From NCBI GenBank assembly GCA_014155875.1, contig JACEFZ010024517.1:70001-134000 (forward strand): DNA of 64,000 nucleotides, read 5' to 3'. This document shows positions 119-63,748 of the stretch, piece after piece. Numbering within the stretch: the first letter of the stretch is position 1; each line of letters begins with the position of its first letter. Source of the stretch: Cepaea nemoralis (taxonomy: Eukaryota > Mollusca > Gastropoda > Stylommatophora > Helicidae). Below the pieces are notes generated by a model, which was not told where the DNA came from, searched no databases, and saw only the letters and a program-made list of their open reading frames with translations. The position numbers and the translations under genes are program-made.

Positions 119-124
119 TTTATT
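119..124 (-). promoter_or_regulatory. Candidate polyadenylation signal AATAAA overlapping the C1q stop codon
   Basis: The minus strand reads TGAATAAA here: the TGA stop of the C1q exon (126-124) shares its final A with a canonical AATAAA hexamer. If used, the 3' UTR would be only a few tens of bases long, within the window. No transcript evidence is available, and other signals may lie beyond position 1. Confidence 0.4.
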
Positions 125-260
125 CACTTGTTTCCCACATCGACCAGATAGCCAGTGAAGGTAGTGTATCTGTTCAGACCGCTTCCGTGGATGCTGGATG
201 GGTTGTGAACTTTCACATAGACTCTGTCACCAGACTTGACACTCAGAGCTATGGAATTCC
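124..260 (-). CDS. C1q domain-containing protein, terminal exon (exon C)
   Basis: This exon encodes the C-terminal third of a C1q domain, the trimerising jelly-roll domain of secreted pattern-recognition and complement-like proteins. Visible motifs are GDRVYVKVHN followed by NRYTTFTGYLV, the usual last beta strands. A strong acceptor (TTTTGTCTGTCTCTAG) immediately precedes it. The exon starts with two bases that complete a Gly codon left by exon B (phase 1), then has 44 codons and a TGA stop. Together with exons A and B it gives a continuous domain of 132 residues, the usual C1q length of about 130. The neighbouring intronic DNA (about 320-560) is an ATC/CAT-rich stretch. No disabling change is seen. 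The secretory signal and any collagen or coiled-coil stalk must be encoded upstream of exon A and were not found. Confidence 0.93.
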
Positions 261-5204: not shown

Positions 5205-5211
5205 TATAAAA
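5205..5211 (+). promoter_or_regulatory. TATA box of the left-arm zinc-finger gene
   Basis: TATAAAA lies about 280 bp upstream of the zinc-finger start codon. TACGTCA motifs occur at 5074-5080 and 5169-5175, resembling CRE half-sites. The arrangement is duplicated exactly in the right arm, where TATAAAA is at 9511-9505 on the minus strand. Role is inferred from position and sequence only. Confidence 0.55.
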
Positions 5212-22400: not shown

Positions 22401-22530
22401 CTCCCGAGGAAAAGCCCTGCCTGTCTAGTCCTTGGGCTCTGGACAGAGACTCATCGTTGTGATAGATTGTGAACCAGAACCCAGTATTGGGGTAGGATAG
22501 GGCGTGGACGTGAAACACATACAGGCCTGT
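22401..22530 (-). CDS. C1q domain-containing protein, middle exon (exon B)
   Basis: The acceptor TCGGTTGTTCAACAG precedes codons for TGLYVFHVHALSY, the G-x-Y-x-F core strand of C1q domains. These are followed by FWFTIYHNDESLSRAQG and GFSSG. The exon ends GGGAG followed by the donor GTACGACA. The start is in phase 0, matching the end of exon A. The end leaves one base, which joins the two leading bases of exon C to make Gly. The reading frame is intact over 43 codons. The exon is wedged between the end of the satellite/LINE block (22318) and the microsatellite at 22557 that hosts the LTR retrotransposon. Confidence 0.93.
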
Positions 22531-22556
22531 CTGTTGAACAACCGATACAACATGTT

Positions 22557-22595
22557 AGATCTGTCTGTCTGTCTATCTGTCTGTCTGCCTTTCTG

Positions 22596-22680
<85 letters not shown>

Positions 22681-22681
22681 A

Positions 22682-22740
<59 letters not shown>

Positions 22741-22742
22741 AC
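22557..22742. repeat. TCTG/TATC tetranucleotide microsatellite
   Basis: GTCT repeats, then about 25 ATCT units, then GTCT repeats. The same GTCT repeat continues after the retrotransposon at 30714, so the element inserted into the microsatellite. Confidence 0.95.
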
Positions 22743-23336
22743 TGTCTATTTCTCACCCGGAGTTGCAACGCGTTGTCTGTACCAACGCCAGGCAATGCAA
22801 CCGAGCTCAACGCTGAGCTATGTTTAACACTACAGTTATAACGCGGCGTCTTCGACAGCGCCAGAGAAGCCCAGCCGGGCTCAACACTGAGCGACGCTAA
22901 GCAGTCGTGAGTCAGCGGGAACACAGCGTGAACATTGTAGGTCACGCAAGGTGACTCGACCCCAACTAACGTGTATGCTGAACGGCTGGTCAGACAGGGC
23001 TTGGGAGTCGTACTGGACGGACGCGATTGAATGAGGCCTGAGTGTTTGAGCATGCATCGATAGCTAGCCTGTATGACTGTTGGAGACTGAACGCCTGTGT
23101 GTTTGACTTGTAAGTGGATTGCATTGATGTATTCTTTGATTGATTGTATTTATGATATAATGATATTGTGAATTATGATTGCGCAATGCCTGTATTGTTT
23201 CTGATGAGTGCATTGCGCGAATAAAGAGTGCGAATTATATCATTGGGTATTCACGTCGAGTTATCTAGTAGTAATATTTAGTATCTCACTTGTCAGTAAA
23301 CGAGCTACATTTCTTGCCTTACGCAAGACCCTGACA
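22743..23336 (+). repeat. 5' LTR of Gmr1-type copy 1
   Basis: It starts TGTCTATTTCTCACCC; the first bases are blurred by the adjacent GTCT microsatellite. It ends GCAAGACCCTGACA. An AATAAA lies in GCGCGAATAAAGAGTG at about 23218-23224, probably the polyadenylation signal. Confidence 0.9.
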
Positions 23337-23375
23337 AGTGCGAACGTGGAGGCTTTTCGTCCTGGTTTTTGAACA
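23337..23375 (+). promoter_or_regulatory. Putative primer-binding region
   Basis: AGTGCGAACGTGGAGGCTTT follows the 5' LTR. An almost identical stretch begins the second element at 48000. No textbook TGG sits directly at the LTR edge; TGGAGG starts 11 nt in. The primer tRNA is not identified. Confidence 0.4.
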
Positions 23376-24058
23376 AATGCGAACGTGTAAAATATAAGAT
23401 AGAGCGGAAGTGCGTATGTGTTGATAGCGTCTAGGTGATAAAATAACTGTAAATTAACGGATAAGTACGATCTTTCGTGTTGATTTAGTTAAACCATAAG
23501 TGCGAAGACTGAGCTATAAGTCCAAACGTGGCGTCTTCGTACTTAGTGAATTTCAACCGATCTAGGGGAAAAGATAAAAACAAAAATGGCGGCCATGTCC
23601 TTGAATGCCACTGAGTAGGAGTAATGTAAGCGGAAAGTCTGAAAAGTGTGAAAAGAGAGTTGTTGATTGTGGTGAAACGACTAACAAAAATACTTGACGA
23701 CATACAAACCTACAAAAACTTAAGTGACATTACATACACCACACACTTGCACATGTTCTAATTTCTCTTGTTCCAAAAACAACAGGTTGTTTTGTGTCAT
23801 CCATACCTGTTCCTTGTAAACTCCAAATTTTTTGTCGACCTGAATTAAGATCCAGTGTGATTTCGGGCAGTACTGAACAGCCATTGTCCGACACATTGTC
23901 CCAGGAATACTTGAGTATAAATTTTTTTCTCTTCTTTATACTTTCGTTGATCAGGCCAAAACATAAGCTGTATTATTAAGAACTGTAAACTATTGAATTT
24001 AAATTACTAACAACATAATTAATTGTGTGTATCTATTTCATCAGACATATTGTTCATC

Positions 24059-25426
24059 ATGTCTAGTTTAAACGATTACATCGAAATGGGTTTAAAGATG
24101 AATCTTTCCGGTGAAGAGTTGAGAGTCTGGAGTGAGAAAAAGTTTGCAGAATACCTCCTATTACAGGAAAAAGTTAATGAGCGTGATGAGAGAGCAGCCG
24201 AAAGATCTTTGAAACAGTCTGAATTAGATACTGCTTTAAAACTTAAACAGACAGAATCAGATACTGCTTTGAAACAAGCTGAAATTTTAGCTCAGAGTAA
24301 GAGAGAAGAACTTGAAATAAATGATCGAAATAACGTGAAGAGCTTGAAGTACAGCTAAAAATTGAACAGCTGAAAGCAGAAACTTCGAAAGAGAAGGAAG
24401 ATAGAAAATCAGACAAAGATCAGCCATACAAGAAATACCAAGGGCTTATTAAAAGTTACACCACAGGTGACTGCATAGCAGCCTTCACCCAAAATTTTGA
24501 ATGTATTATGGATCATTACCAGATCCCAAAGTCTGAATGGAGTATAATATACATGAGAAGTCTTTCTGGGGACCTCTGAAAGTGATAGAGTCTATTCCAA
24601 ATGACCTGAAGAAAGATTATCAGTATATTAAGACTAAAATTATGTCTCATTTCTTGCTAGATGAAGCAGGCTACAGAGAACAGTTTAGGTAAATTGTCTC
24701 CTAAACCAACACAAACGTTCTCTGATTACATCTCAGAAGTACAAAATATTTTTTCTAAGTGGCTGTCAGCAGCCAAAGTGAATGGTAATTTTGATAGATT
24801 GACAGATCTTATTTTGAGAGATAAAATTATTACATCTCTCCCACCTCCATTTTCGAAATTTCTATTGGAATGTCAGTGTGAAAGTGTACAACAGATTGAA
24901 AGTCGTGGCTCAGGTTATTTTTCAGCCAATAAACAATGTTTCACTAGTGGATTGACTAGCACAGACTTTGTAGCAGCCGCTACATATGGTAGATCTAAGT
25001 CAGTGCCCTACAACAAACAAAAGCCCTATAAGCAATCTGCTGAGAAAGTTTTATCAGTGCAGATATTGCCACTTATCACACAATGAAAGTGAAATATGTG
25101 ACCAACATCCAGGGTACACTTCTTACTTGCAGAACTATATATCTAAGCAAGACAAAGAAAGAAAGAGCTACAGACGTCTCACCAAATGTTTCCTTTGTAA
25201 GGCGGATGGCCATTGCCGTAATGATTGTAAAGGCAAAGCAATGACCAGAAAGGCTAATGCAGCCATGTTTGATAGCTCTTCCTCAGAAGATGAAAGTGTA
25301 GAAGATCATCCTGTAAACTCAGCACATTCCATTGATGTGTTTCACCATGAAAAATGTACCATCTGTGATCGATTTCATGAGGATGGCGTTTTAACATGCG
25401 GCCATTCCTATACCTGTTACAAATGA
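24059..25426 (+). pseudogene. Gag of Gmr1-type copy 1, frameshifted
   Basis: It starts MSSLNDYIEMGLKMNLSGEE. A charged coiled-coil stretch with repeated LKQ/ELDTALK segments follows, then a capsid-like region (YKKYQGLIKSYTTGDCIAAF, TFSDYISEVQNIFSKWL). A zinc knuckle CFLCKADGHCRNDC (C-X2-C-X4-H-X4-C) lies near 25190-25232. At least two frame changes (about 24340 and 24550-24690), and one near 25060, break it. Gag would form the particle and bind RNA. Confidence 0.8.
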
Positions 25427-26123
25427 GGAGGCCAATTTAGTAGTTAACTCCCAAGGTAAATTAATTATCCACCATGGGTATGTTAATGGTAGAGCTGCCA
25501 CCATTTTACGAGATAGCGGCAGTACTCTCATTGGCGTTAAGAGAGACTATATCTTACCATCACAATATAGTGGTAAATATGTTACATGCAGAACTTTCTC
25601 AGGTAACATCAAGAAATACCCGCTTGCATGGGCATACATAAGTACACCATTTCTTACAGGAAAAGTTAAATGCGCAGCATTACCAATCCTTGTTGCGATT
25701 TTATCATTGGTAACCTTCCTGAGGTAAATTATATGCCACATGACAGTATTACATCCACTGTCACTTGTAACATTGATAATACCATCTCACCTTCATCTCA
25801 AATCACCATTCATGATGTATTACCACCTGTAAATGAATGTATGCATGCCAATTCGGCAACGCCAGCACATGAATGTAGTTGTTTGAATGTAACACCAACT
25901 TGTAATGATAATGATAACCGTGATATTACAAATGCAGTAACCAGATCTACTGCTCAAATGCAAGATCGAATCGATCAGACAGAGGCTTTACACCAAATAA
26001 GCCCAGTTGTAACATCTCCTGAAACAACCAGGGAGAAATTTATAACAGCTCAAAAAGCCGATCGATCTTTGCAGAAGTATTTTAAACTAATAGAGCAAAA
26101 GCCACGATTAGCAAAGAACGCTT
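25427..26123 (+). pseudogene. Retropepsin-like protease region of copy 1
   Basis: The frame continues from the gag end and contains GRAATILRDSGSTLIGV. Its DSG triad, with Asp at 25512, is the retropepsin active site. It is followed by a TCRTFSGNIKKYPLAWAYI strand and a C/D-rich linker, ending in a stop just before the integrase. Frame changes near 25426 and 25670 interrupt it. Confidence 0.75.
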
Positions 26124-26197
26124 AATGGTATTTTGCTCTGAAAAACGGAGATCTGACACGGTACTATACCAAAGGTTCTATCACTACAGAACAAACG

Positions 26198-28825
26198 GTG
26201 CTACCTTCAGAAAACCGCAAGCAAGCATTAAAGCTAGCGCATGACATACCCTTCGCAGGGCATTCGGCTTATGCTAAAACAAGAGCAAGGTTACTTACTC
26301 AATTCTATTGGCCTAAATTCTGCAGTGATACCAAACAGTATTGCAGATCGTGTGACATCTGCCAAAAGCTTGTTAAAAAGGGTAAACACCCGCAAGCTGA
26401 ACTGCAAATCACTGATTTGGCAAGCAGACCGTTTGAAAAGATCTCGGTCGATATAGTTGGTCCTCTTAACCACATAACATCGAGAGGAAATAAATATATT
26501 GTAACAATAATTGATCTCTGTAGTCGGTGGCCAGAAGCAATTCCGATGAAGAACATAACTTCCAAAGACATCATGGAAGTCTTCTTCCATATTTTTGCAA
26601 GGGTAGGATTCCCTGATACCATCCTCTCAGATCGGGGTAGTCAGTTCATTGCCTCAGCTACGCAAGCCTTTACTAAAATGTTGGGTGTGAAGCAGTGTTT
26701 TAACAGCCCCTACCACCCACACTCCACTGGTATTATAGAAAAGATTAACGGTGATCTTAAACATATGCTCTCAAAAGTTACCCAAGAACACCCTGAAGAT
26801 TGGGATACGTATCTACCTGCTATTTTATTTGCATACAGGGAAGTGCCCCATTCCAGCACTGGATTCTCACCATTTGAAATTGTATATGGTGCCAAACCAC
26901 GCGGCCCATTATCTTTGTACCAGTCTATGTTGACTGAAAGTAAAACTATACCTACACCCATTTCATCGTATGAACATGTAACATCATTGCGCGATAGAAT
27001 CATGAAATCATGTGTGTTAGCGAAAGAAGCACTACAAAAATCAGGTGCTATCTACCGACAATACGCTAACAGAGGAAATAGAACAATTACTCTGACGCCA
27101 GGACAGGACGTTCTTCTTCTATTGCCAAGTGACAGACATCTTCTCACAGACTCATGGCAAGGACCGTTTAAAGTGTTACGACAAATTTCGACAGTAGATT
27201 ACGAAATTGCAGTTAGGGACAAACACAAGATTTTTCATATTAACATGCTCAAACCATATTACCACAGGGGCGTCGACCAAGTAGAGACTACAGCAAGCAC
27301 AACAATAGTGGACCAGACAGACGACAAATATACTGACGAGATACCGACACCAGTACTTGACACGACAACCAACCTACAGGACATAAAGGTAAATCCTAAG
27401 CTGACGCAGACACAGACCGACAGTTGCAGACAAGTGTTACAAGAATACAGTACGATTTTTTCTAACAACCCAGGACAGACAGACTTAGTGCATCATCATA
27501 TTATTTTGACATCCGACATCCCAATAAAATGCAGACCATATTCCATTCCTATACACTACAAAGACAAACTACACCAAGAAATTATTGATTTAGAAGCAAA
27601 CCATATCATCCGACGTTCACAATCACATTTTTGTTCACCTATTGTCATTGTGAGGAAAAAGGACAACACAATAAGACTCTGTGTTGACTATCGGAAACTC
27701 AATAGCATCACACAGTTGGATTTGGAGCCAATGAGCAACTGTGAAGACAAACTAACTGAACTGACTGACTCACGTTACTTTACTAAACTTGACATGACAA
27801 AAGGTTACTGGCAAATACCTGTACATGCTGACAGCATACATCTGACAGCATTTGCCACACCCTGGGGACTATACGAATGGTGCAAACTACCATTCGGGCT
27901 AGTTAATGCTCCAGCCACATTTGTCAGAATGACAAGACTTCTTTTGACAGACATTTCTAACATCATTTGGTACATGGACGACATTTGCATACATACAAAG
28001 AACATGACAGACCACATAACAGCACTACAGCAGACATTCGACAGGATTAGACAACATGGACTGACAGTAAAACCATCCAAAGTCGATATAGCCTTTCAAG
28101 AAATTTCATTTTTGGGCTATAAGATCTCAAATGGCTTTATATCGACTGACGATAACATCATGTCCAGAATTTTGAAATTGTCGCTTCCGACAACCAAGAA
28201 AGAGTTGCGAAGTGTGTTAGGTCTTTTAAATTATTATAGACAATTTATTCCTCATTTTGCTGAATTGACCAAATGTTTCACTGATTTACTAACAAATAAA
28301 CATCCTAATGTCATTGTGAACAGCGAATGTTTAAGGCCTGCATTTGCGAAAGTATTAGCTTATTTTTCTAGTGAACCTATTCTAAAATTACCCGATCTTA
28401 GCACTATTTTCAGGTTAAGATGTGATGCGAGCTCCGTAGCCATTGGAGGGGTGCTTCTTCAAGAACACGACCAAATCTTGTACCCTGTATACTACGTCTC
28501 TCGAAAACTGAACACCAGGGAACGGAATTACAGCACGCCGGAACTTGAAGCCCTCGCTCTTGTGTTTTCGGTACGTAAACTTTCAAGATTTCTGTTAGGA
28601 AAACACTTCATTGTAGAGACAGACAATAGTCCATTGACGATTATCACCAGAGGAACTCCAAGTAATCACAAAGTGGCAAGATGGTCCCTTCTTCTGCAGG
28701 ACTATAGCTTCGAAGTCAGACATATAAGAGGCTCACAAAACTCACTGGCCGATCTTCTATCTAGATGTCCATACGACTTACCCAGTAGCCATGTAACACC
28801 CGAGCACACTGCAGATGGTGTATAA
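26198..28825 (+). CDS. Pol of copy 1: integrase, then reverse transcriptase and RNase H
   Basis: An open frame of 875 codons; the true N-terminus is probably upstream, past a stop near 26123. Order: integrase zinc-binding region (H15, H22, C52, C55) and core with D85, D145 and E181, a D,D-35-E triad. Then a C-terminal region with WQGPFKVLRQIS and KIFHINMLKPYY at about 325-355. RT starts near residue 445 (CVDYRKLNS; FTKLDMTKGYWQIP; LPFGLVNAPATF; catalytic YMDD at 592-595). RNase H starts near 740 (RCDASS; PELEALALV; ETDNSP; HIRGSQNSLADLLSR). All key residues are present. Polyprotein order differs from most gypsy elements, where integrase is last. Confidence 0.93.
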   Translation: MLPSENRKQALKLAHDIPFAGHSAYAKTRARLLTQFYWPKFCSDTKQYCRSCDICQKLVKKGKHPQAELQITDLASRPFEKISVDIVGPLNHITSRGNKYIVTIIDLCSRWPEAIPMKNITSKDIMEVFFHIFARVGFPDTILSDRGSQFIASATQAFTKMLGVKQCFNSPYHPHSTGIIEKINGDLKHMLSKVTQEHPEDWDTYLPAILFAYREVPHSSTGFSPFEIVYGAKPRGPLSLYQSMLTESKTIPTPISSYEHVTSLRDRIMKSCVLAKEALQKSGAIYRQYANRGNRTITLTPGQDVLLLLPSDRHLLTDSWQGPFKVLRQISTVDYEIAVRDKHKIFHINMLKPYYHRGVDQVETTASTTIVDQTDDKYTDEIPTPVLDTTTNLQDIKVNPKLTQTQTDSCRQVLQEYSTIFSNNPGQTDLVHHHIILTSDIPIKCRPYSIPIHYKDKLHQEIIDLEANHIIRRSQSHFCSPIVIVRKKDNTIRLCVDYRKLNSITQLDLEPMSNCEDKLTELTDSRYFTKLDMTKGYWQIPVHADSIHLTAFATPWGLYEWCKLPFGLVNAPATFVRMTRLLLTDISNIIWYMDDICIHTKNMTDHITALQQTFDRIRQHGLTVKPSKVDIAFQEISFLGYKISNGFISTDDNIMSRILKLSLPTTKKELRSVLGLLNYYRQFIPHFAELTKCFTDLLTNKHPNVIVNSECLRPAFAKVLAYFSSEPILKLPDLSTIFRLRCDASSVAIGGVLLQEHDQILYPVYYVSRKLNTRERNYSTPELEALALVFSVRKLSRFLLGKHFIVETDNSPLTIITRGTPSNHKVARWSLLLQDYSFEVRHIRGSQNSLADLLSRCPYDLPSSHVTPEHTADGV

Positions 28826-30101
28826 ACTGCAAATTAAATAGTGCTCAACACCACAGCCAATTGTGACATCATGTCAGTAACGCTGTGAAGAATGATGTGA
28901 TAGGGAAGATTTAATCTCCCATTGTAAATAAATTGTGTAGATACTATTATTATTATGTGAATGAATGTGTCGTATAACTGTGAGATATGTGAAAGAATGT
29001 GAATAGCATTGTAAATATGTAATAGTATAATAAACAGACACTACAAGTGTCACAGGACAGTACTACAGGACCCAAAGACTTACCGAACTCGAACTGCGTC
29101 AAGTAATCCTGAGTACATGCACAAAGATGAGTCCACGGCGTTTTAACAAGTACGAATGATGACCGTGACAACCTAATCCGAGAAGAACACGGAAGAAACT
29201 ATCCAACAGCTGGTTACAACAACTGGTTGCTCCGTTTGGTTAAAGTCCATCTAGAACGGAAGACCTTGATGTGAATGTCAACATAACACATTTGTGGAAC
29301 AACACAGCTGTACACTTCCGGTATATTTGCATATTAATTTGAAAGTTAGCAGACGATACTAAAATGTTCATAAATCTATGACAATTGTATGAAACTTTGG
29401 GTATGAAATATTTCCATATACGGAATTGTATATGTTGATTTTTGTTAGATGTAATCTCAGCATCGTAACTTGATTTACTTTTTCACAACAGTGACCTTTT
29501 GTGCACTTTTGTCAATAAGTATCAAATTATGACACTAAGAAATGAAATTTTACTTGTAATTCATTTCGTTGAAAGCATGATAAAATTACCGTCCCTAAAC
29601 TTTTGTATTATAACCAAGGGACATAACTAAAAATTGTTGGTGATGTGTAAATATGTATTGAAACTATCAACATGTTTGCCTGATGGGTAACACGTCAATG
29701 TGACGTCATTTGTGTATGGAGAGAATTGCCAAAACTGTAGACCTTCATTGGACACTCTGATTAAATAAGGTTAGAGGTCTAATGTTGGAGTTATCTTACA
29801 GGTAGATACTCACAGTCTGACCTGACGATTTGGAATTTTTGTTTTTTGGTTGAGAGGTAGGGGCGAAGTTAGCCGTAACCTACCGGACTGGCTGTGTCAA
29901 TACAGCGAGGTAATATCCATCAAAGTGATTGTACTTGACGGGTGTACTTGATGGTTAAGCATAAAGATTGTATGCATATTGTTTGCTAATCACCTGTACA
30001 TGTTAATAACAATCAAAGATTTATGTCAGATGAAGTACAAAGTTCGATTCTGACAAGGTAAATAAGAGCTATATAGAGTACATGAAAGGAAAACCTTTCA
30101 T
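28826..30101 (+). other. Retrotransposon 3' untranslated region
   Basis: About 1.3 kb between the RNase H stop and the polypurine tract, without an open frame resembling env. The second element has a comparable 1.4-kb stretch, so a long non-coding 3' region is a family trait. Confidence 0.7.
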
Positions 30102-30120
30102 GAAAAAGGTGGGTGGAGAG
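30102..30120 (+). promoter_or_regulatory. Polypurine tract
   Basis: GAAAAAGGTGGGTGGAGAG lies immediately before the 3' LTR, the expected plus-strand primer. Confidence 0.8.
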
Positions 30121-30713
30121 TGTCAGATTCTCACCCGGAGTTGCAACGCGTTGTCTGTACCAATGCCAGGCAATGCAACCGAGCTCAACGCTGAGCTATG
30201 TTAAACACTACAGTTATAACGCGGCGTCTTCGACAGCGCCAGAGAAGCCCAGCCGGGCTCAACACTGAGCGACGCTAAGCAGTCGTGGGTCAGCGGGAAC
30301 ACAGCGTGAACATTGTAGGTCACGCAAGGTGACTCGACCCCAACTAACGTGTATGCTGAACGGCTGGTCAGACAGGGCTTGGGAGCCGTACTGGACGGAC
30401 GCGATTGAATGAGGCCTGAGTGTTTGAGCATGCATCGATAGCTAGCCTGTATGACTGTTGGAGACTGAACGCCTGTGTGTTTGACTTGTAAGTGGATTGC
30501 ATTGATGTATTCTTTGATTGATTGTCTTATGATATAATGATATTATGAATTATGATTGCGCGATGCCTGTATTGTTTCTGATGAGTGCATTGCGCAAATA
30601 AAGAGTGCGAATTATATCATCGGGTATTCACGTTGAGTTATTTAGTAGTAATATTTAGTATCTCACTTGTCAGTAAACGAGCTACATTTCTTGCCTTCCG
30701 CAAGACCCTGACA
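30121..30713 (+). repeat. 3' LTR of Gmr1-type copy 1
   Basis: TGTCAGATTCTCACCCGGAG to GCAAGACCCTGACA, nearly identical to 22743-23336 apart from scattered substitutions and a 1-bp length difference. Confidence 0.92.
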
Positions 30714-30772
<59 letters not shown>

Positions 30773-30773
30773 A
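30714..30773. repeat. GTCT microsatellite (right side of insertion)
   Basis: About 14 TGTC units, continuous with the microsatellite at 22557-22742 before the retrotransposon inserted. Confidence 0.9.
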
Positions 30774-30929
30774 TTTTAGAAATCAACTTATTGAATCGCA
30801 TTACTATTTTTTACGTTACGCAATGTATGTGCATAATTTGTTATCCATTTGTTACACATTTGTGAGAATGCTCTCGATGATCGTCAGTGTATGAGTGTGT
30901 AAAGTGTGGGAGTTTGTTCACAGTAGCTT

Positions 30930-31149
30930 CAGAGATTATGTGAGGCATCATGTATGTGTCTAGATGTAAGGATTGTGTTTGGGTTGGTGATGGGTTTGTG
31001 GGTGGGGGTATGTGTGTGGAGGGGTGTGGTTTGGGAGATGTTTGTGGGTGGGAGAGGTGTGGGTGGGTTGGGAGATGTGTGCGTGGGTGGGGGAATATGT
31101 GTGTGGATGACGGATGTATCTGTGTGGGGATGTGAGTGTATCGGTGGAG

Positions 31150-31192
<43 letters not shown>

Positions 31193-31755
31193 GGGGGGGT
31201 GAAAATTGCGTGTATGAGTGGATGAATATTCGTGTGTGGGGATGTGTGGATGTGTGGGTGGGGGATGTGGGTTGGTGTATGGGGATATGTGTAGGGGTGT
31301 GGGGAATATGTTTATGGGTTGGGGGATGGGAGTGGCTGATGTATATGGATGGGGAGGTGTGTGTGGGTGGGGCGATGTGTGTGTGTGGATGGGGAAGGTG
31401 TGTGTGTGGATGGGGAGGATATGTGTGGATTGTGGGGGTGTGGATGGTGGGAGATGTGTGTGTGTGTGTTGATGGAAGATGTGTGTGGTAGTATGGTAGA
31501 AATGTATGTGAGTGGGGGATGTGTGGGATGTGTGTGTGTGTGTGTGTGTGTGTTTGTGCATGTGGATATGTGTGTGTGAGTGGGGAGATGTGTGCGGGTG
31601 GGGATGTGTGTGTGGTGAAGGGTGTGTGAGTGGGTAAATAGGGAGGTGTGGGTTAGTGTGAGATGTGTGGGAGGGTGTGTGGGTTGTTGGAGGATGTGTG
31701 GGAGGGTGCGGAGGTGAGTGAGTAGTTGGAGGAATGTGTGTGTGAGTGTGTCACG
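30930..31755. repeat. TG/TGGG-rich low-complexity block
   Basis: Purely G/T-rich DNA with (TG)n runs and GTGTGTGGATGGGG-like units. Open frames on both strands reflect composition (Val/Cys/Gly on one strand, Thr/His/Pro on the other). Confidence 0.9.
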
Positions 31756-32176
31756 ATTTTGCTCAAATCAGCTGTCTTTGTACGAGGAATCTCCATAGTA
31801 CTAAACTACGTCATTGGGGAGTTCCCCAGTTACTTATAACTCGGGGGAAGTCGGCTGATTTTCATAACTTAGATTGTTCGAGAACTGGATGGTTCGAGAC
31901 CAAAAGGTCGAAACGGGCACTTGTTTTATCCCGTGAGCATAGTTGCCATTCTAGATAATTTATATCCAGATCTAGAGGTTTTTGCCGGCGTCTGGATACC
32001 GTTTTCAGACGTTTGGATGCTGGATGCAATTCTAGATACTTTTCATTTGGAGTCGGATATTTTGAATACTTTCTAGATGTACCCATTTTATGTTTGGTCT
32101 GGACGCGAGTAAATTATGGTAACTGCCATTATTTAAACTTTGAACTGACTTGGGTCAACACTCAACAATCTGGCAA
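31756..32176. other. Unassigned sequence ahead of hAT-like remnant
   Basis: No protein or RNA signature recognised. AACTGGATGGTTCGAGACC and repeated CTAGATA words may be part of a degraded transposon. It ends at a run of 16 C's (32177-32192). Confidence 0.4.
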
Positions 32177-32199
32177 CCCCCCCCCCCCCCCCGGTAATG

Positions 32200-33595
32200 A
32201 GTAAAAGGGCGCATAAGGGCACTGAAGAAACTTTTGGTCAGTAAACATTTAAACTTAAAGAATTTGGCTGCAATTGGAACCGATAATGCATCGGTAATGG
32301 TCGGTATCAACCATGGCGTGTATGCAAAATTGATGGAAGATATCCCATCTTTAATCCTCATAAAATGTGCGTGTCATTCCTTGCAGCTAGCATTATCTCA
32401 TGCCTCATCAGTCAGAATGTTTACCAAGGAATTTGGAATTCCTTATTGCTGAAACACATAACTGGTTCTCCAAATCATCTGTCAGATAACAGCAATATAA
32501 TAATTTATATAAAGCATTAAATGATAGTTCCTCACCACTGAAAATTCTGTCATATTGCAAAACTAGATGGTTATCAATTTAACCAGATGTTGAAGTAATT
32601 GTGAACCGATGGTTGGAGTTGAAGACACACTTCGAAATAACAAGACAAAATTAAAAGTGCTACACAGCTGAAATAATATATGGAATGTACAGTGATGAAA
32701 AATAATTTGGCATTCCTTCTCTTTTCACAACCCATTTTAAGTTAAGTGCAAAAAGTTAATAAACTATTTGAATCTCAAAATGTTGATAAAGTTAAATTAC
32801 TTGACGACCTCCTTTGCTATTTCACTCAATTGTTAAAAGACTTATATTGCCAACTTGTAAAGCTGACTTGTTCACTTGCACTATAGAGAGCTATTTGGCT
32901 CCCAAGCCATACCTGGGATACCAAATTGAATCAAAAATTGATGGTTACAAAACAAAAGGACTGCTAACAGAAAATGAAGAGAACAACTTAAGAAAGAGCT
33001 GTTAAGAGTTTCTTGTCTCATTATTCGATCAACTGAAGCAGAGACTTCCTGAAAATTTAGATGTATTGAAAAATATTTCAAAAAAATATACCTAAATATT
33101 GTCAAGTTATTAAATTTTTAGGGACTACTGATAATAGTGTGACGGAAGCAGAATATTAGTTAACAAAAATAAATTTGGTTGACTGAACAAACAAAAAAGA
33201 AACTGAAGCTTTTTGGAGTGAAGTAAGACAATTTAAAGATGTCTCAGGTAACAGTCCATTCTGTGAGCTCTTTGAATGTGCGATGTCTGCCATGATACTA
33301 CCCCATTCAAATGCTGATGCGGAAAGAGTTTTCAGTACTGTGAATTATACAAAATGTAAACTAAGAAACAGGATGAAACTTGATCTCTTAAATGCTATAT
33401 TGACAATAAGATTTGGCCTGATGAGAGCAGGAAAATGCTGTTCAACTTATCAGCTCCCTGATCGTGTAATAAAAGAAATTGGAACAGCTAAAGCATACCA
33501 GAGTCATTTTGAATCTGAAGCTTCAACTTCATCATCCAAGCTAAGTGCATCTTGTGAGACAGGCATCAGTGAAGATGAGGACATGATTCTAAAGG
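32200..33595 (+). pseudogene. hAT-like transposase-derived gene, decayed
   Basis: The N-terminal fragment encodes NLAAIGTDNASVMVGINHGV and ILIKCACHSLQLALSHASS, the Asp-containing region and CxxH block of hAT/ZBED-like transposases. The C-terminal fragment (33270-33595) encodes MILPHSNADAERVFSTVN and CKLRNRMKLDLLNAIL, the hATC dimerisation motif. Between them stops and frame changes abound. It is a different subfamily from the hAT at 16836-20100. Termini were not found. Confidence 0.8.
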
Positions 33596-33639
33596 TAAGT
33601 CACATCAATTTTGTTTTTAATTTTGCATATTCCTCTAAA

Positions 33640-34940
33640 AAGTACTGGAGAGTTTTGGTCATAGACCATAACTTTAAGAAGGGAAAATCCCAACTGCACC
33701 TCCCCGCGGTAGAGGATGGAAACACACCACGGTGTGGCTAACACAGCTCTGGGGACCGAGTATCCACCGGAATAAGTGGACAACTCTGCAGCTGAGCAGA
33801 GCAGGGCACTCACTTGTCCTGACAGTCGGAAATGGCTGTCAAAGGCAGAGTTAAAAGACCACCATGTGAATGTGGAAGGCAAGGGGAAACCACCACATTA
33901 TCTTCCCAAGATTTCATGGCGACACACATTTCAGACCGACAAACACACAATAATTTATTCTGGAGGGGACACACATGAAAAAGGTGTAGGAATAATATTT
34001 GATGAAAATACAGCCAAATCTATGACTGGATACTGGTGCATTTCAGATAGAGTTATAATGGTCAAAATCAAAGGCAACCCAATAGATATAAATATTATAC
34101 AAGTATATGCACCAATAACAAACAGTAGTGATGAAGATATACACAACTTTTACGATGAAGTTGAAATGGCAATAGCCCAAATTGGATCACAAGAAATAAA
34201 AATAATACTGGGGGATTTTAATGCAAGAGTAGGAAAGGGAAAAATAGAGGATATAGTGGGGAATTACGGTTTAGGTACAAATGAAAGAGGAGAGAAACTA
34301 ATAGAATGGGCAAATATTAATGATATGATAATTGGAAACACATGGTTTAAACACCATAAAAGACGACTATACACATGGAAAAGCCCTGATATGAAAATAC
34401 GCAAACAAATTGACTACATACTTGTTAATAAAAGATTTAGAAATGCATTAATTAATGTAAAGACAATGCCTGGTGCTGACGGTAACAGTGATCATGTATC
34501 ACTATGTGGACAAATAAAAGTAAGATTAAAGAGAGGGGAAAAATGGTTAAAAACTTGAGACTTAATAAAGAGGTTCTGAAAGTAGATAAAGAAATTCAAG
34601 AACAATACAGAGTGACTGTGAAAAATAGGTACAATGCAATAGCTAAAATACAGAGTATAGATGAACAATGGGAATGTTAAGGGACTCCATTCATCAAACT
34701 AGCAAAGAAAATGCAGTGAAAAGTACCACATATTGGAGCATACTGCCATATGACAGGCACGCCGCGAAACTAAGATACATGAAAAAAAAGGAGAAAAAGG
34801 GATTTTTCATAAGGACACACCAAACTGAACAAGCAGCACGAAATCCAAGGGAGACCCAAGACGTCACAGGACAACAAGTAAACAGACGTTGTGCGATTCT
34901 ATTAGGACGCGGATGTGTTTTTCGTGAAGCCCGTGTTCGG
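33640..34940 (+). pseudogene. LINE 5' half with AP-like endonuclease
   Basis: This starts with a leader (CCCGCGGTAGAGGATGGAAA and onward). A 260-codon open frame (33776-34558) follows, with its N-terminal TWNV box missing or altered. It includes SDRVIMVKIKGNPIDINIIQVYAP-type strands, ILGDFNARVG, RRLYTWKSPDM, IDYILVNKRFRNA and the terminal NSDHVSLCG. These are the hallmark residues of LINE apurinic-like endonucleases of RTE/BovB type. A linker resembling the region between endonuclease and RT follows, and the copy ends near 34940 without RT. Confidence 0.82.
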
Positions 34941-35830
34941 TGAATTTATGGATGCAAGGATTACGAGCTCCGGCAGGTAAATAGCAGGAGAGGAACTTGT
35001 AGACGATGAAACGATCAATGGAAGGACCGAAAGCACAAAACCTAGACCAATCCTGAATTCGGAACTTAGAAATAGATAACTGCGCTTCAAGGTGAATTGG
35101 ATGTATTAAGGGGGATTATCCTTAGACGATAGTTAAACGCCGTCCTTGTCTAAAAAGGGCAGTTTATAGTCTTGGAAGATCAGGCCTATTATTGTATCCA
35201 GCACACTATTAAACGTGTGATATTATTCGCCTGGATTGCGTCAGTTTGTTTTCGCATTGTTTTCCAGAAGTTCAGGTAACGTTTCTCAATTTACGAGTTG
35301 CAAAGCGTTGATGATAATTTCTTGTTCAATATTGCTGAAGTTACGTTGAAGCACATGCTGGATCAGCTCAAGTCGGATAAAAGCGGTCAGAGATATAAAT
35401 TGTCTCAAATCATGCCAACAGCAATTATACACACAAATAAGCTGAGTCAACGATGCCAGAGGTGAATGTGAACATTGGTCAATGAAAAACAGAACCGCAG
35501 ATTACATATTACGATGCTTAAATGATTGTGCTGAAAGATACCTCCCCAGCGGCACAACTCTATGGTGCTTCAGGACTGAAAAAAGCCTACTACTACTACT
35601 TATGTGAATATGCAAGAACTCATGTATGTGCGACAGACCTACACTCGGACAGACTGGTGTAAATTAAGAAACCTCCAGCAAGAAGAGCAGACATTTAGTC
35701 AGAAATACATAGAACGGGAGACAACCTCTCTTAAATATATTTTGATCTCAAGTGTTGCCTCCCTTTCGCCAAAGTTAATGTGGATGCATTCTGTTAACAA
35801 ACTAAGTGAAGCACAAAACCATCAATACCG
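34941..35830. other. Unassigned sequence
   Basis: No recognisable gene, RNA or repeat. Short frames only. It may contain further decayed transposon DNA. Confidence 0.4.
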
Positions 35831-35834
35831 TCAG

Positions 35835-36842
35835 AGAGCACCTGTTTGCTGATGATTGCACTCTATATGCCAAGACAGAGTCAGACATGCAACACAATGT
35901 TTCAGCTTTCTCATGTGACTGTGCCATCTTTGGGCTCAATATCAACTTGGAGAAGACTGTAGTTATGTAATAGCCAGCTCCAGGGAATAATCACACTGTG
36001 CCGAATATCAAAATCAATGCTAATAGACTAAGTGTTGTGGACAAATTCACTTATCTTGTCAGCACTGTGACCCAAGCTGTAACAATTGATGATGAAGTGA
36101 ATGCAAGAATCTCCAAGGCCAGCGCGGCCTTTGGAAAACTGTACAAGAATGTATGGGACAGAAATGTAATAAGCCTGCAAACAAAGCTGAAAGTCTAAAA
36201 ATCAGCACTGCTATATGCTTGTGAAACCTAGACTGGTTATCAGCGACACGCTAGGAAATTAAACCACTTTCACACAGTCTGCCATCGGATCTATTGAAGA
36301 TTAATTCTCCAGACAAAATCCCAGACACTGATATCATAGAAAGAGCGTCCATGCCCAGTATCCAAACTCTAATAATAAAGAATTAGATTCGCTGGGCTAG
36401 TTACTTGACTCGCATGCCAGATCACAGGCTCACTAAATGAATTTTTTTACGGCGAGCTGCGTTGTGGTAAATGCTCCCAAGGTGGCCAGAGGAAACGCTT
36501 TAAAGACACTCTGAAGATATCACTAAAGGCTTGTGAAATTCATCATGGCACGTGGGAGACTGCTGCCACTGACCGAAATTCGTGGCATACATGATTACGC
36601 AAGGGTGTAGTCACCTGTGTAAAAAACAGGACTGCAAGAGCTCTGAACAAAAAGGCTGGACAGAACAACAACTGCAGGACATCCACCTCCTGGAAAGTCA
36701 AGCATTCTTTGCCCACATTGTCAAAGAACATTTCTAGCCAAAAGATGCCTTAACAGCCATCTTAGAACTCACGGCTCCATACTTTCAATCCCACTGGATG
36801 AAATGAATGGTCATCATCATTCTTGATGGACAAACAACAAAG
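35835..36842 (+). mobile_element. LINE RT C-terminal half and 3' end, decayed
   Basis: It begins at the catalytic box (LFADDCTLYAKTESDMQHNV) and continues NINLEKTVVM, then VVDKFTYLVSTVTQ and the RISKASAAFGKLYKNVWDRN block. It then carries YQRHARKLNHFHTVCHR and the C-terminal finger region, ending with a TTCTTGATGGACAAACAACA tail. It belongs to the same family as 16270-20204 and 14036-14275. Numerous stops. Confidence 0.82.
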
Positions 36843-36879
36843 TGAAGCTGGCACTTAGTAACGTGAAGAACATGTCAAA

Positions 36880-36985
36880 GGGAAACGTGGAACAAACAAT
36901 TTAATGAACACAACTGTATCTTAAGAAACACTGGAACGTGTGCCTACCTTGATGTCGGAGAAGACACGGGAGCACTAAAGACACA
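36880..36985 (-). other. Short segment with splice-like signals beyond the minisatellite
   Basis: On the minus strand CTCTATCGCCTGTGTCTTTAG resembles an acceptor. It precedes 27 bases coding CSRVFSDIK and a donor-like GTAGGC. It could be a decoy microexon. Exons A and B join perfectly without it, so I do not count it as coding. Confidence 0.2.
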
Positions 36986-36989
36986 GGCG

Positions 36990-37806
36990 ATAGAGAATAA
37001 GTGTAGGCTTACCTTGGGAGCGGTGGAGAACAAGTGTAGGCTTACCTTGGGGGCGGTGGAGAACAAGTGAAGGCTTACCTTGGGGGCGGTGGAGAACAAG
37101 TACAGGCTTACCTTGGGAGCGGTGGAGAACAAGTGAAGGCTTACCTTGGGGGCGGTGGAGAACAAGTGTAGGCTTACCTTGGGGGAGGTGGAGAACAACT
37201 ACAGGCTTACCTTTGGGGGCGGTGGAGAACAAGTGTAGGCTTACCTTGGGGGCGGTGGAGAACAAGTGAAGGCTTACCTTGGGGACGGTGGAGAACAAGT
37301 GAAGTCTTACCTTGGTGGCGGTGGAGAACAACTACAGGCTTACCTTGGGAGGCGGTGGAGAACAAGTGTAGGCTTACCTTGGGGGCGATGGAGAACAACT
37401 ACAGACTTACCTTGGGGGCGGTGGAGAACAACTACAGGCTTACCTTGGGGGCGGTAGAGGACAAGTGAAGGCTTACCTTGGGGGCGGTGGAGAACAAGTG
37501 AAGGCTTACCTTAGGGGCGGTGGAGAACAAGTGAAGGCTTACCTTGGGGGCGGTGGAGAACAAGTGAAGGCTTACCTTGGGGGCGGTGGAGAACAAGTGA
37601 AGGCTTACCTTGGGGGCGGTGGAGAACAAGTGAAGGCTTACCTTGGGTGCGGTGGAGAACAAGTTTAGGCTTACCTTGGGGGCGGTGGAGAACAAGTGAA
37701 GGCTTACCTTGGGGGCAGTGGAGAACAAGTGAAGGCTTACCTTGGGGGCGGTGGAGAACAAGTGAAGGCTTACCTTGGGTGCGGTGGAGAACAAGTTTAG
37801 GCTTAC
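36990..37806 (-). repeat. 33-bp minisatellite of C1q splice-donor units
   Basis: Twenty-four tandem copies of a unit reading on the minus strand CACCGCCCCCAAGGTAAGCC followed by TTCACTTGTTCTC. The unit copies the last about 12 bases of exon A plus the first about 15 bases of the intron, so nearly every copy retains CAAG|GTAAGC. Exon A's own donor is the twenty-fifth. Units nearest the exon are open in the C1q frame and would add VSLxLFSTAPK per copy. Units with AAGCCTGTAG (for example near 37438) introduce a stop, and two units have 1-bp insertions. Confidence 0.92.
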
Positions 37807-37940
37807 CTTGGGGGCGGTGAAGATGCCGGTGTCACTGTTGTAGGCCTCACCATAGTTTACGAGAACATCGTCGAACTTCACAGTGTCATTAGTTTGATAG
37901 GTCGCGTCGTAGTTGACCACCGCAGAGAAAGCCACATTTC
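37807..37940 (-). CDS. C1q domain-containing protein, first exon seen (exon A)
   Basis: The acceptor TTGGCTTCTTTTCGCAG is followed by two bases completing an upstream codon. Then 44 codons encode NVAFSAVVNYDATYQ, VKFDDVLVNYGEAYN and TGIFTAPK, with donor GTAAGC. These match the conserved first half of a C1q domain: F-x5-N-x4-Y-x6-F-x5-G runs through this exon into exon B. C1q-domain proteins are usually secreted trimers that bind microbial or other ligands. The signal peptide and stalk exons lie further upstream (above 37940) and were not recognised. The entire downstream intron edge is the splice-donor minisatellite. Confidence 0.93.
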
Positions 37941-37964
37941 CTGCGAAAAGAAGCCAAAAAGAAA

Positions 37965-55915: not shown

Positions 55916-57017
55916 TTGAACATTCAATATTTACACACATGTTGTTCTGTCCAGCAACATTTACACACATGTTGTTCTGTCCAACAACATTTACACACAT
56001 GTTATTCTGTCCAACAACATTTGCATACATGTTGTTCTGTCCAACAACATTTACACAAATGTTCTGTCCAACAACATTTACACACATGTTGTTCTGTCCA
56101 GCAACATTTACACACACGTTATGTCCAGCAATATTTACACACATGTTCTGTTTGACAACATTTACACACATGTTGTAATGTCCAGTAACATTTACACACA
56201 TGTTGTTATGTGCAGTAAAATTTACACACATGTTGTTCTGTCCAACACAATTTACACACATGTTCTGTCCAGCAGCATTTACACACATGTTGTTCTGTTC
56301 AACAACATTTACACACATGGTGTTCTGTCCAACAATATTTACACACATATTCTATCCAACAACATTTACACACATCTTCTATCTAGCAACATTTACACAC
56401 ATGTTATGCCCAGCAACATTTACACACATGTTCTATCCGGCAACATTTACACACATGTTCTGTACAGCAACATTTACACACATGTTGTTCTGTCCAGCAA
56501 CATTTACACACAAGTTCTATACAGTCACATTTACACTCATGTTGTTCTGTCCAGCAACATTTACACACATGATCTATCCAGCAACATTTACACACATGTT
56601 GTTCTGTCCAGAAACATTTACACACATGTTCTATCAACAAACATTTACACACATGTTCTGTCCAGCAATATTTACACACATGTTGTTCTTTCCAGCAACA
56701 TTTACACACATATTATATACAGCAACATTTACACACATGTTGTTCTGTCCAGAAACATTTACACACATGATCTATCCAGCAACATTTACACACATGTGTT
56801 CTGTTCATGCAACCATTTACACACATGTTGTTCTATCATGTAACATTTACACACAATGTTGTTCTGTCATGTAACATTTACACACATGTTGTTCTATCAT
56901 GTAACATTTACACACATGTTGTTCTTCATGTAACATTTACACACATGTTGTTCTGTCATGTAACATTTACACACATGTTGTTCTATCATGTAACATTTAC
57001 ATACATGTTGTTCTGTC

Positions 57018-57036
57018 CTGTCTCTTATACACATCT
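57018..57036 (+). other. Exact 19-bp match to the Tn5/Nextera mosaic end
   Basis: CTGTCTCTTATACACATCT replaces part of one type-B satellite unit. This is the transposase recognition end used in tagmentation library adapters. Its presence inside a tandem array is best explained by untrimmed adapter sequence reaching the assembly. Confidence 0.8.
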
Positions 57037-60000
57037 TTTACACACATGTTGTTCTATCATGTAACATTTACACACATGTTGTTCTGTCATGTAACATTTA
57101 CACACATGTTGTTCTATCATGTAACATTTACACACATGTTGTTCTATCATGTAACATTTACACACATGTTGTTCTGTCATGTAACATTTACACACATGTT
57201 GTTCTGTCATGTAACATTTACACACATGTTGTTCTGTCATGTAACATTTACACACATGTTGTTCTGTCATGTAACATTTACACACATGTTGTTCTAGTCA
57301 TGTCACATTTACACACATGTTGTTCTATCATGTAACATTTACACACATGTTGTTCTGTCATGCAACATTTACACACATGTTGTTCTAGTCTATGTAACAT
57401 TTACACACATGTTGTTCTGTCATGCAACATTTACACACATGTTGTTCTAGTCATGTAACATTTACACACATGTTGTTCTGTCAGTACCATTTACACACAT
57501 GTTGTTCGATCATGTAACATTTACACACATGTTGTTCTAAGTCATGTAACATTTACACCATGTTGTTCTATCAGGTAACATTTACACACATGTTGTTCTA
57601 TCATGTACATTTACACACATGTTGTTCTGTCATGCAACATTTACACACATTTGTTCTGTCATGGAACATTTACACACTGTTGTTCTGTCATGTAACATTT
57701 ACACACATGGTGTTCTGTCATGCAACATTTACACACATGTTGTTCTGTCATGTAACATTTACACACATGTTGTTCTGTCATGTAACATTTACACACATGT
57801 TGTTCTAGTATGAACATTACACACAGTTGTTCTGTCATGCAACATTTACACACATGTTGTTCTGTCATGGAACATTTACACACATGTTGTTCTATCATGT
57901 AACATTTACACACATGTTGTTCTGTCATGCAACATTTACACACATGTTGTTCTGTCATGTAACATTTACACACATGTTGTTCTATCATGTAACATTTAGA
58001 CACATGTTGTTCTATCATGTAACATTTACACACATGTTGTTCTATCATGCAACATTTACACACATGTTGTTCTGTCATGTAACATTTACACACATGTTGT
58101 TCTGTCATGCAACATTTACACACATGTTGTTCTGTCATGTAACATTTACACACATGTTGTTCTGTCATGCAACATTTACACACATGTTGTTCTGTCATGC
58201 AACATTTACACACATGTTGTTCTGTCATGGAACATTTACACACATGTTGTTCTGTCATGCAACATTTACACACAATGTTGTTCTGTCATGCAACATTTAC
58301 ACACATGTTGTTCTGTCATGTAACATTTACACACATGTTGTTCTATCATGTAACATTTACACACATGTTGTTCTGTCATGCAACATTTACACACATGTTG
58401 TTCTGTCATGCAACATTTACACACATGTGTTCTATCATGCTAACATTTACACACATGTTGTTCTGTCATGGAACATTTACACACATGTTGTTCTGTCATG
58501 GAACATTTACACACATGTTGTTTGTCATGCAACATTTACACACATGTTGTTCTGTCATGTAACATTTACACACATGTTGTATCTGTCATGAACATTTTAC
58601 ACACATGTTGTTCTGTCATGCTAACATTTACCACACATGTTGTTCTTTCATTGCTAACATTTACACAACTGTTGTTCTGTCAAGTAACAATTTACCTACA
58701 ATGTTGTTCTATCATGTACAACATTTACACACAATGTTGTTCTGTCATGTAACATACCACTACCATGTTGTTTTCATCATGTAACATTTACACACATGCT
58801 TGTTCTGATCATGTAACATTTACACACATGTTGTTCTGTCATGCACCATTTACACACATGTTGTTCTATCAGTAACCATTACACCATACCCAGGTTGGTT
58901 CTGGTCATGCTAACATTTTACACACATGTTGTTCGTACATGTCAACATTTACACACATGTTGTTCTGTCCAGAAACATTTACACACATGTTCTATCAACA
59001 AACATTTACACACAAGGTCTGTCCAGCAATATTTACACACATGTTGTTCTTTCCAGCAACATTTACACACATATTATATACAGCAATATTTACACACATG
59101 TTGTTCTTTCCAGCAACATTTACACACATATTATATACAGCAACATTTACACACATGTTGTTCTGTCCAGAAACATTTACACACATGATCTATCCAGCAA
59201 CATTTACACACATGGTGTTCTGTACAGCAAAATTTACATACATGTTCTATCAACAAACATTTACACACATGTTCTGTCCAGTAACATTTACAGACAAGTT
59301 CTGTCCAGTAACATTTACACACATGTTCTGTCCAGCAACATTTACACACATGTTCTGTCCAGCAATATTTACACACATGTTCTGTCCAGTAACATTTACA
59401 CACATGTTGTAACAACAAACATTTACACACATGTTCTGTCCAACAACATTTACACACATGTTCTGTCCAGCAATATTTACACACATGTCGTTCTTTACAG
59501 CAACATTTACACACATGCTGTTCTGTCCAGCAACATTTACACACATGTTCTATCCAGCAACATTCACACATATGTTTTTCTATCCAGCAAAATTTACACA
59601 CATGCTGATCTGTCATGTTACATTTACACACAAGTTGTTCTGTCATGGCACATATACACACACGTTATGTCCAGCAACATTTACACACATTTTGTTCCGT
59701 TCAGCAACATTTACACACATGTTCTATCAAGTAACATTTACACACATGATCTGTCCGGCAACATTTACACACATGTTCTTCTGTCCAGCAACATTTACAC
59801 ACATGTTCTATCCAGCAACATTTACACACTTGGTCTATCCAGCAACATTTACACACATGATCTGTAAAGCAACATTTACACACATGTTCTATCCAGTAAC
59901 ATTTACACACATGTTCTATCCAGTAAGATTTACACACATCTTCTATACAGCAACATTTACACACATGTTCTATACAGCAACATTTATACACATGTTCTAT

Positions 60001-60550
60001 ACAGCAACATTTACACACATGTTATATCAAGTAAGATTTACACACATGTTGTTCTGTCAGACAAATTTACACACATTTTTCTGTCAGGCATATTTTACAC
60101 ATGTTGTTCTTCATGGAACATTTTACACACTGTGTTCTATTCATGCAACATTTACACACATGTTGTTCTTTGTACATTTACACACATGTGTTCTATCAAG
60201 CACATTTACACACATGTGTTCTGTCATGCAACATTTACACACATGTTGTTCTGTCAGCAACATTTACACACATGTGTTCTATCTGCAGATTTACACACAT
60301 GTTGTTCTATCATGCAACATGTACACTACAATGTTGTTCTGATCATGCTAACATTTACAACACATGTTGTTCTGTCATGTCACCTTTACACTACCTGTTG
60401 TTCTGTCATGTTAACATTTACACACATGTTGTTCTGTCATGGTAACATTTAGCACACATGTTGTTCTGTCATGCAACATTTACACACATGTTTCTATGAA
60501 GTAACATTTACACACATGCTGTTCTGTCATGTTACATTTACACACATGTT

Positions 60551-60562
60551 GTTCTGTCATGG
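60551..60562. repeat. 12-bp flanking duplication, left (TCTGTCATGGAA)
   Basis: It is repeated at 62657-62668 on the other side of a 2.1-kb insertion in the satellite. The sequence is itself a satellite word, so the duplication is suggestive but not decisive. Confidence 0.6.
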
Positions 60563-62645: not shown

Positions 62646-62689
62646 CTCAACTCAACTCTGTCATGGAACATACACACACAGCAGCAACA

Positions 62690-63029
62690 TTTACACACAT
62701 GTTGTTCTGTCCAGAAACATTTACACACATGATCTATCCAGCAACATTTACACACATGTTCTATCCAGCAACATTTACACCCATGTTCTATCAAGCAACA
62801 TTTACACACATGTTCTATCCAGCAACATTTACACACATGTTCTATCCAGAAACATTTACACACATGTTTTATCCAGCAACATTTACACACATGTTCTATC
62901 CAGCAACATTTACACACATGTTGCTCTATCCAGCAACATTTACACACATGTTCTATACAACAACATTTACACACATGTTCTATACAACAACATTTACACA
63001 CATGTTCTATACAACAACATTTACACACA
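62690..63029. repeat. 27-bp satellite (second block)
   Basis: About 12 type-A units (TATCCAGCAACATTTACACA then CATGTTC), continuing the main array after the chimeric insertion. Confidence 0.92.
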
Positions 63030-63748
63030 TGTTCTTCTTCTTCTTTGCGTTCATCTGGAGTGTTTTTTTTTTCAGATGTGATTGCGGTGTGTCTTGTTAC
63101 GCACCCGTGGGTCGAAACCCTTAGGCCAACACATCCGACTTTTAGCGTGCAATTTTCACCAGGTTAGAATTCCTCGGAGACTCTCGTTTTTGTGGTACCG
63201 TCCACATCCCAGCTAGTAAAGTTGGAACAGTCGAAGACTTCGGTCATCCCTCAAAGGAAGGCAGGGACAGTCCATGGCATTTTCCCCCATCCTGGGTGGC
63301 TTCCATAATTGCAGAGCCGACACATTGCGCCCTGGTGCTGGGCCCACAGAGGGAATCGTCACCTCCTGCTCATGGCTGCTTTAATTCCTCACTTCAATAT
63401 GCTGGGCATTTCGTTCGTCCCGGGCCTTTCCCGCATAAACCAGACAGGTCTGCAGATGGTATCCATTCAGCGAGTTTTCGGGTCGGACATGTGCTTGTCG
63501 TTGTTTCAGAGCAGTTCCGACCAAGAGCGGCTTTCGGAAACTAGGTAGTCAGAGCTGTTCCTAGCACGAGAAACATTCGGACGAGACATTTCACTCGGAC
63601 GTAAATGCGTAGTGCAAATTTTTATTTTGCCACCCGTAGGACGGCACTTCCGACTTCGGCGGGCATTTTTAATGAGGTTAGCCTTCCTCGGTTATCGAGG
63701 CACGTTAGACTTATTGTTGTGATGTCGCCCACATCTCAGCTGGTCAAG
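63030..63748 (+). mobile_element. SINE-like repeat, dimeric, inside the satellite
   Basis: It starts TTCTTCTTTGCGTTCATCTGG and shares TTCCATAATTGCAGAGCCGA and many other words with the reverse complement of 20930-21408. GTGGGTCGAAACCC at about 63109 resembles a pol III B box. A second partial copy of the inner segment (GTTAGCCTTCCTCGG, GTCGCCCACATC, CAGCTGGTCAAG) follows at about 63640-63748, so this copy is dimeric or rearranged. Confidence 0.6.

Follow-up and report, generated by a model that had tools for sequence, protein, structure and literature searches.

The locus described here raises the question of how the exon-intron junction of a C1q gene came to be multiplied into a long tandem series of splice donors, and whether such a series serves to vary the encoded domain or is a by-product of repeat instability. 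It lies in a stretch of 64,000 nucleotides of the genome of the land snail Cepaea nemoralis (GenBank assembly GCA_014155875.1, contig JACEFZ010024517.1, positions 70,001 to 134,000), hereafter called the window, to which all coordinates refer. A COX1-like stretch on a 284-kb contig of the assembly, which may be a nuclear copy, had 93% identity to a protein cluster labelled Helicoidea and 96% to one further protein, pointing to a helicoid land snail as the most likely host.

The C1q gene and the repeat at its first junction

The exon structure of the gene was set by homology, with the three exons of the C1q domain on the minus strand. The following features were distinguished (slash, splice site):

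37807..37940, minus strand: C1q exon A, ending in TGIFTAPK at donor 1 (CCCAAG/GTAAGC); Pfam C1q match, open frame and acceptor TTCGCAG
36986..37823, minus strand: 33-bp junction minisatellite (donors 1-25), 24 units being complete and the 25th partial; TRF and unit table
37444..37806, minus strand: units 1-11, without stops and sharing the frame of exon B; exon A, n units and exons B and C joined in silico
37013..37443, minus strand: distal units 12-24, with TAG in 12, 13, 15 and 19 and insertions in 14 and 18; unit table
36942..37012, minus strand: partial unit 25 running into old family intron sequence, with the last donor-like AAG/GTAGGC (last exon-side base 36948)
22531..37806, minus strand: intron A, predicted, 15.3 kb if donor 1 is used
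22401..22530, minus strand: C1q exon B (TGLYVF...FSSG), beginning in phase 0; homology and in-silico joining
124..260, minus strand: C1q exon C (GNSIALS...GYLVDVGNK stop); homology and in-silico joining

Exon A ends on the minus strand in ACCGGCATCTTCACCGCCCCCAAG/GTAAGC. Exons A, B and C joined at donor 1 scored 89.5 bits against the Pfam C1q model (PF00386) over positions 1-127 of 127, the cut-off being 23.7. Two C1q proteins were retrieved from the database, the nearer being from Bradybaena similaris (45%). In the predicted Bradybaena protein P0001 the site of the units has no insert, the sequence there being FTAPK-AGLYVF. An AlphaFold model of P0001 built from the single sequence had a mean pLDDT of 44.7 and was set aside. 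Intron A also encloses an 899-aa open frame (26126-28825, stop to stop) which, as read from the sequence, resembles the integrase/reverse transcriptase polyprotein of an LTR retrotransposon.

The 33-bp array was delimited by TRF at 36986-37823 of the minus strand, with 25.3 copies and 91% matches; it starts inside exon A (37823) and continues into the intron, crossing the boundary between the two as placed by homology. All 25 donors of the series contain AAG/GTAAG, 23 of them as GTAAGC, one as GTAAGT (donor 13) and one as GTAAGA (donor 16), and they follow each other at 33 bp except after units 14 and 18, where the spacing is 34 bp. A weaker donor 26, AAG/GTAGGC, was located 65 bp beyond donor 25, and a tail resembling this terminal segment (36942..37012) was also present in relatives of the gene having a single donor. 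The first-pass annotation had described the array as built from the C1q exon-intron junction with a donor in almost every unit; TRF and the unit table confirmed this and gave a donor for each unit; the TAG-bearing units (12, 13, 15 and 19) and the two 1-bp insertions (units 14 and 18) that it had noticed were likewise recovered, and its 24 copies correspond to the full units, to which a partial 25th has to be added.

In-silico joining to exons B and C produced a full C1q reading with 0-11 extra units from donors 1-12, and all readings from donors 13-26 ran into the TAG of unit 12. The earlier proposals that exon B (22530-22401) is entered in phase 0 and that the proximal donors keep the frame thus held, with 12 such donors in place of roughly eleven. 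A single inserted unit lowered the Pfam score from 89.5 to 75.6 bits and three units resulted in 76.2 bits, in two stretches; both values are far above the cut-off of 23.7 and the drop therefore carries little weight. In the two PDB alignments shown of the 31 matched sequences (5kca and 5ybz) the insert site was gapless.

Copies of the junction across the genome

The draft assembly (3.47 Gb, 26,579 contigs) was searched at the DNA level with window positions 36900-37945 as the query; very common words were skipped, so that the counts are lower bounds. At least 52 matches were obtained in at least 30 places, and all 52 listed matches were located at C1q exon A junctions. Because every match adjoined the same C1q exon, there was no sign of a dispersed satellite, and an origin of the repeat as a satellite or transposable element was rejected for the 30 places found. 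Donors were then counted at each locus as GGTA[AG]G motifs in a run with gaps of up to 80 bp. More than one donor was present in 11 of the 30 copies, as listed below, while the other 19 had a single donor, the motif recurring within 80 bp of it in none of them.

Window: 26 donors
L025: 12 donors
L017: 8 donors (6 in the 33-bp series)
L033: 7 donors (5 in the series)
L027: 5 donors
L042: 3 donors
L028: 3 donors (2 in the series)
L071: 3 donors
L022: 2 donors
L047: 2 donors
L069: 2 donors

Nine of the multi-donor loci had the 33-bp period, whereas L069 had one of 48 bp and L071 one of 49 bp; additional units with decayed donors were present in L027 and L042. At least two in-frame donors were kept in nine of the 11 loci, exon B being assumed to start in phase 0 everywhere. 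L017 has a TAG already in unit 1, so only donor 1 gives a C1q reading there, and in the 49-bp array of L071 the frame is lost from the second donor onward. L017 and L033 differ by one donor in the series (6 vs. 5), the pair being only 89% alike. L022 and L028 were 97.8% identical over 4.6 kb with one full repeat unit each and are probably two haplotypes of one locus which the assembly kept apart; colinear C1q exons were seen for this pair at the end of contig G000:C6204 and the start of C18520. For the window array itself a second allele was not encountered.

Several of these loci showed individual peculiarities. In L042 (G000:C16739) the exon-proximal donor is weakened to GTAAAC, which was not counted, and the next unit reads AAG/GTAAGC, making it a candidate for a shifted donor. 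The 49- and 48-bp units of L071 and L069 (G000:C21514 and C20186) resemble 33-bp units in which the spacer is extended, 49 not being a multiple of three. The most diverged copy, L072 (G000:C11956), has one donor, beyond which lies an array with a period of 41 bp and 13.6 copies. The exon end is echoed in this array, the consensus of which has TGTCAAG at the donor position, without GTAAG.

Growth of the arrays and constraint on their parts

Of the 19 copies with one donor, 15 were combined into a consensus (the near copies L023 and L067 and the diverged L070 and L072 being excluded), in which the intron was examined for echoes of the exon end. Two eroded ones lay in its first ~65 bp: TCTTCACCGACATCAAG, at a distance of 63 bp from the matching exon sequence, with a score that 7 of 2000 dinucleotide-preserving shuffles reached, and TCTCCACCGCC, at a distance of 33 bp, with a score reached by 27 of 2000. 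The ungapped test at individual loci, which had preceded that on the consensus, was weak, with p ≤0.05 in 15 of the 30 copies and a best offset of 33 in ten of them. It failed at L069 (best offset 48, p 0.83) and at L071 (best offset 49, p 0.67), and that the array period follows the echo is therefore what we infer. In our reading the echoes are what is left of an earlier array at the junction, or the starting point for growth by misalignment, the two readings being compatible.

Changes in unit number could be followed between related copies. L047, with two donors, and L057, with one, grouped with modest support (80/73) in the exon A tree, and their difference looks like a single 33-bp step of this kind. 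The window and L025 were sister copies with 100/99 support, but had 26 and 12 donors, respectively; the mean distance between units was 2.76 within the window, 5.25 between the window and L025 and 5.61 within L025, the last value showing that the L025 array is not homogeneous. GCCAGCAAG ended all nine units of L017 and L033, as it does their own exon end, and none of the 24 window units. The multi-donor state needed at least four changes on the exon A tree (bootstrap 4-5), which was built from 30 rows and 160 columns and left 10 of its 26 inner branches open; the well-supported branches alone are compatible with a single origin. From these sequence comparisons a repeated expansion of arrays appears likely, as against one old array with losses. 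Inside the window array the mean pairwise distance was 1.71 for units 1-11 vs. 3.33 for the later units, and no significant polarity of divergence was found along the array (Spearman 0.21, p 0.32).

Exon A was open in all 30 copies. Between the window and L025 it had a dN of 0.039 and a dS of 0.280; the family median dN/dS was 0.47 (431 of 435 pairs) and dN exceeded dS in some pairs, indicating a modest constraint. For the repeat units, simulations with the observed number of substitutions gave a probability of 0.81 that units 1-11 of the window would be free of stops, and of 0.65, 0.98, 0.17 and 0.39 for the arrays of L025, L033, L027 and L042, respectively. An open frame is thus expected of the unit by chance in these stop-free arrays, and purifying selection on its reading frame was unsupported. 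L017 was left outside this judgement, the stop being part of its consensus (3 of 5 units). Stop units were more frequent in the window array as a whole than in the simulations (4 of 24, P 0.007), an excess which the copying of a single TAG variant inside the array would explain. Damaged units were distributed unevenly, with none among the 11 proximal and six among the 13 distal ones (Fisher p 0.016).

The donor core, defined as the eight columns of AAG/GTAAG, had none of the 37 deviations in the window array (column shuffles, p 0.0075) and was its least variable block of eight. When four array groups were pooled, the core held seven of 68 alternative states (p 0.003, or 0.006-0.013 once CpG or hypervariable columns had been taken out), values to be read with the units not being independent of each other. 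The bias was borderline in L027 and L042 together (p 0.05 by deviations, 0.03 by states) and not significant in L025 alone (p 0.35) or in L017 with L033 (p 0.22). The low variability may reflect selection on the donors, and growth of an array from a selected exon donor would give the same pattern; it is the best lead toward a possible function.

Explanations of the array and comparison with known systems

The window array is probably an old, slippage-prone minisatellite which arose from the junction between exon A and intron A in a multicopy C1q family and in which the exon-proximal donor may be the one mostly used. Misalignment of the exon end with its echoes, by replication slippage or unequal exchange, would add and remove units, and the period would be set by the spacing of the echo (33, 48, 49 or 41 bp) rather than by a coding need, the agreement of 33 bp with 11 codons looking incidental. 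The spliceosome might then act mostly at the exon-proximal donor to give a normal C1q domain. If donors 2-12 were used, each unit would contribute 11 more residues at a site which is insert-free in the aligned C1q structures, and donors 13-26 would lead to a premature stop; both would be minor products at most. Of the two options offered by the first-pass annotation, the neutral minisatellite with donor competition fits best with the periods of 48, 49 and 41 bp, the TAG in unit 1 of L017, the off-frame array of L071 and the units open by chance; on the same grounds its other option, a length-variable splice switch, was unsupported.

Such a switch, if maintained, would have donors 1-12 all in use and produce C1q domains with 0-11 copies of VSLxLFSTAPK, that is, length diversity in an immune-type family. 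The preserved frame at these 12 donors, the concentration of all six damaged units among the last 13, the retention of at least two in-frame donors in nine of 11 loci, the low variability of the donor core in the window and pooled arrays and Pfam scores above the cut-off with one or three units inserted are all in line with it. Yet the stop-free proximal units are what chance predicts in the window and in the four other stop-free arrays, units 1-11 are simply more alike than the later ones, L017 and L071 are incapable of in-frame forms of this kind, the Pfam score drops with inserts and P0001 has none, which makes a maintained switch quite unlikely. No database protein with repeated units appeared among the top 8000 candidates scored, and since only these were scored, the result says little. 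The constancy of AAG/GTAAG in all 25 window donors and its low variability in the pooled arrays, together with the 15.3-kb length of intron A, would also suit an array whose many donors jointly keep U1 snRNP bound where a long intron begins, securing exon A or blocking early polyadenylation, with only one donor being cut. We consider this unlikely, given that a single donor suffices in 19 of the 30 copies and that array size bears no relation to intron length by eye: L017 and L033, with six and five donors in series, have introns of about 0.5 kb, and L022 and L028, with two donors, of about 21 kb (the next exon B in line being assumed to be theirs). A variant of the same proposal takes the units for recursive splice sites, by which units joined to exon A are spliced out again. 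Recursive sites combine a pyrimidine tract with an acceptor AG joined directly to GTAAG, and 14-17 of the 20 bases before each AAG/G are indeed pyrimidines, but the acceptor-like triplet is AAG and not CAG in 26 of 26 cases; AAG is a weak form of acceptor and 33 nt are too short for one intron.

A broader proposal is that these junctions are recurrent birthplaces of donor arrays in which the donors are selected and the arrays functional, either for in-frame splice choice or for U1 binding, their rapid turnover resulting in a fast-evolving number of splice sites; this we regard as rather unlikely. Misassembled reads could in principle have created the array or its length in a draft of 26,579 contigs, but the window array has private unit variants in irregular order and the junctions on other contigs carry different arrays of their own, so that an artefact is very improbable, the exact copy number being that of the draft assembly. 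The slippage-prone minisatellite remains the preferred reading.

C1q-domain-containing (C1qDC) genes form families in molluscs, and the snail host gene resembles them in its C1q domain (PF00386) and its many relatives in the genome; to our knowledge donor arrays have not been reported from molluscan C1qDC genes. A literature search combining the C1q domain with intron, tandem repeat and splice donor found no paper, and a gene family with recurrent donor arrays of different periods was not found in the open-access literature searched. Intron gain by tandem duplication is similar in that splice signals are copied when the duplicated segment spans an intron-exon boundary; there, however, a new intron results, whereas in the snail only the donor side is multiplied, in many short units, with nothing pointing to a new intron.

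A closer parallel is found in the human interferon-induced gene IFI6 (6-16), whose repeat unit is 12 bp long. Multiple splice donors are supplied there by a minisatellite (Turri et al., 1995, as cited in PMC4526556, PMC2572611, PMC2915984 and PMC3618361); according to the account in PMC4526556, two downstream repeat units act as donors and three mRNA species are formed. With this splice-donor minisatellite on record (PMC4526556), the earlier statement that no equivalent had been described was wrong. The IFI6-type arrangement of tandem units each with a donor consensus was found in the window array as well (25 of 25 with AAG/GTAAG, spacing 33/34 bp), and in both cases the units supply splice donors to a gene of the immune response or of immune type. 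The genes are nonetheless unrelated, donor use is reported for IFI6 whereas the snail donors are predicted from DNA, and the snail arrays differ further in that several members of a paralogous family carry them, with periods that vary. In the polymorphic mucins of Schistosoma mansoni, as outlined in PMC2576457, repeat number and splicing likewise diversify a gene family of the host-parasite interface, but the units there are of about 1 kb and hold a 27-bp exon repeat, in contrast to the 33-bp junction repeat of the snail.

The recurrence of donor arrays across a gene family appears to be new. Thirty paralogous junctions in one genome, with 1-26 donors, several periods and arrays in and out of frame, offer a natural series on how the spliceosome chooses among identical donors, and are equally suited to asking how repeats at an exon end could become variation in protein length. 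They also contain a warning for annotation, as gene predictors may extend exons into junction arrays.

Other repeats of the window lie apart from the C1q junction. A minisatellite of about 158 copies with a 30-bp unit occupies 55921-60561, and similar 27-bp arrays were located at 62682-63035 and 63749-64000. A near-perfect inverted repeat (2552-6414 / 8302-12063) consists of five arm pairs of 388-1154 bp which are 99-100% complementary; its innermost arms are about 1.9 kb apart, and a zinc-finger-like ORF was read from the sequence on each strand of the arms.
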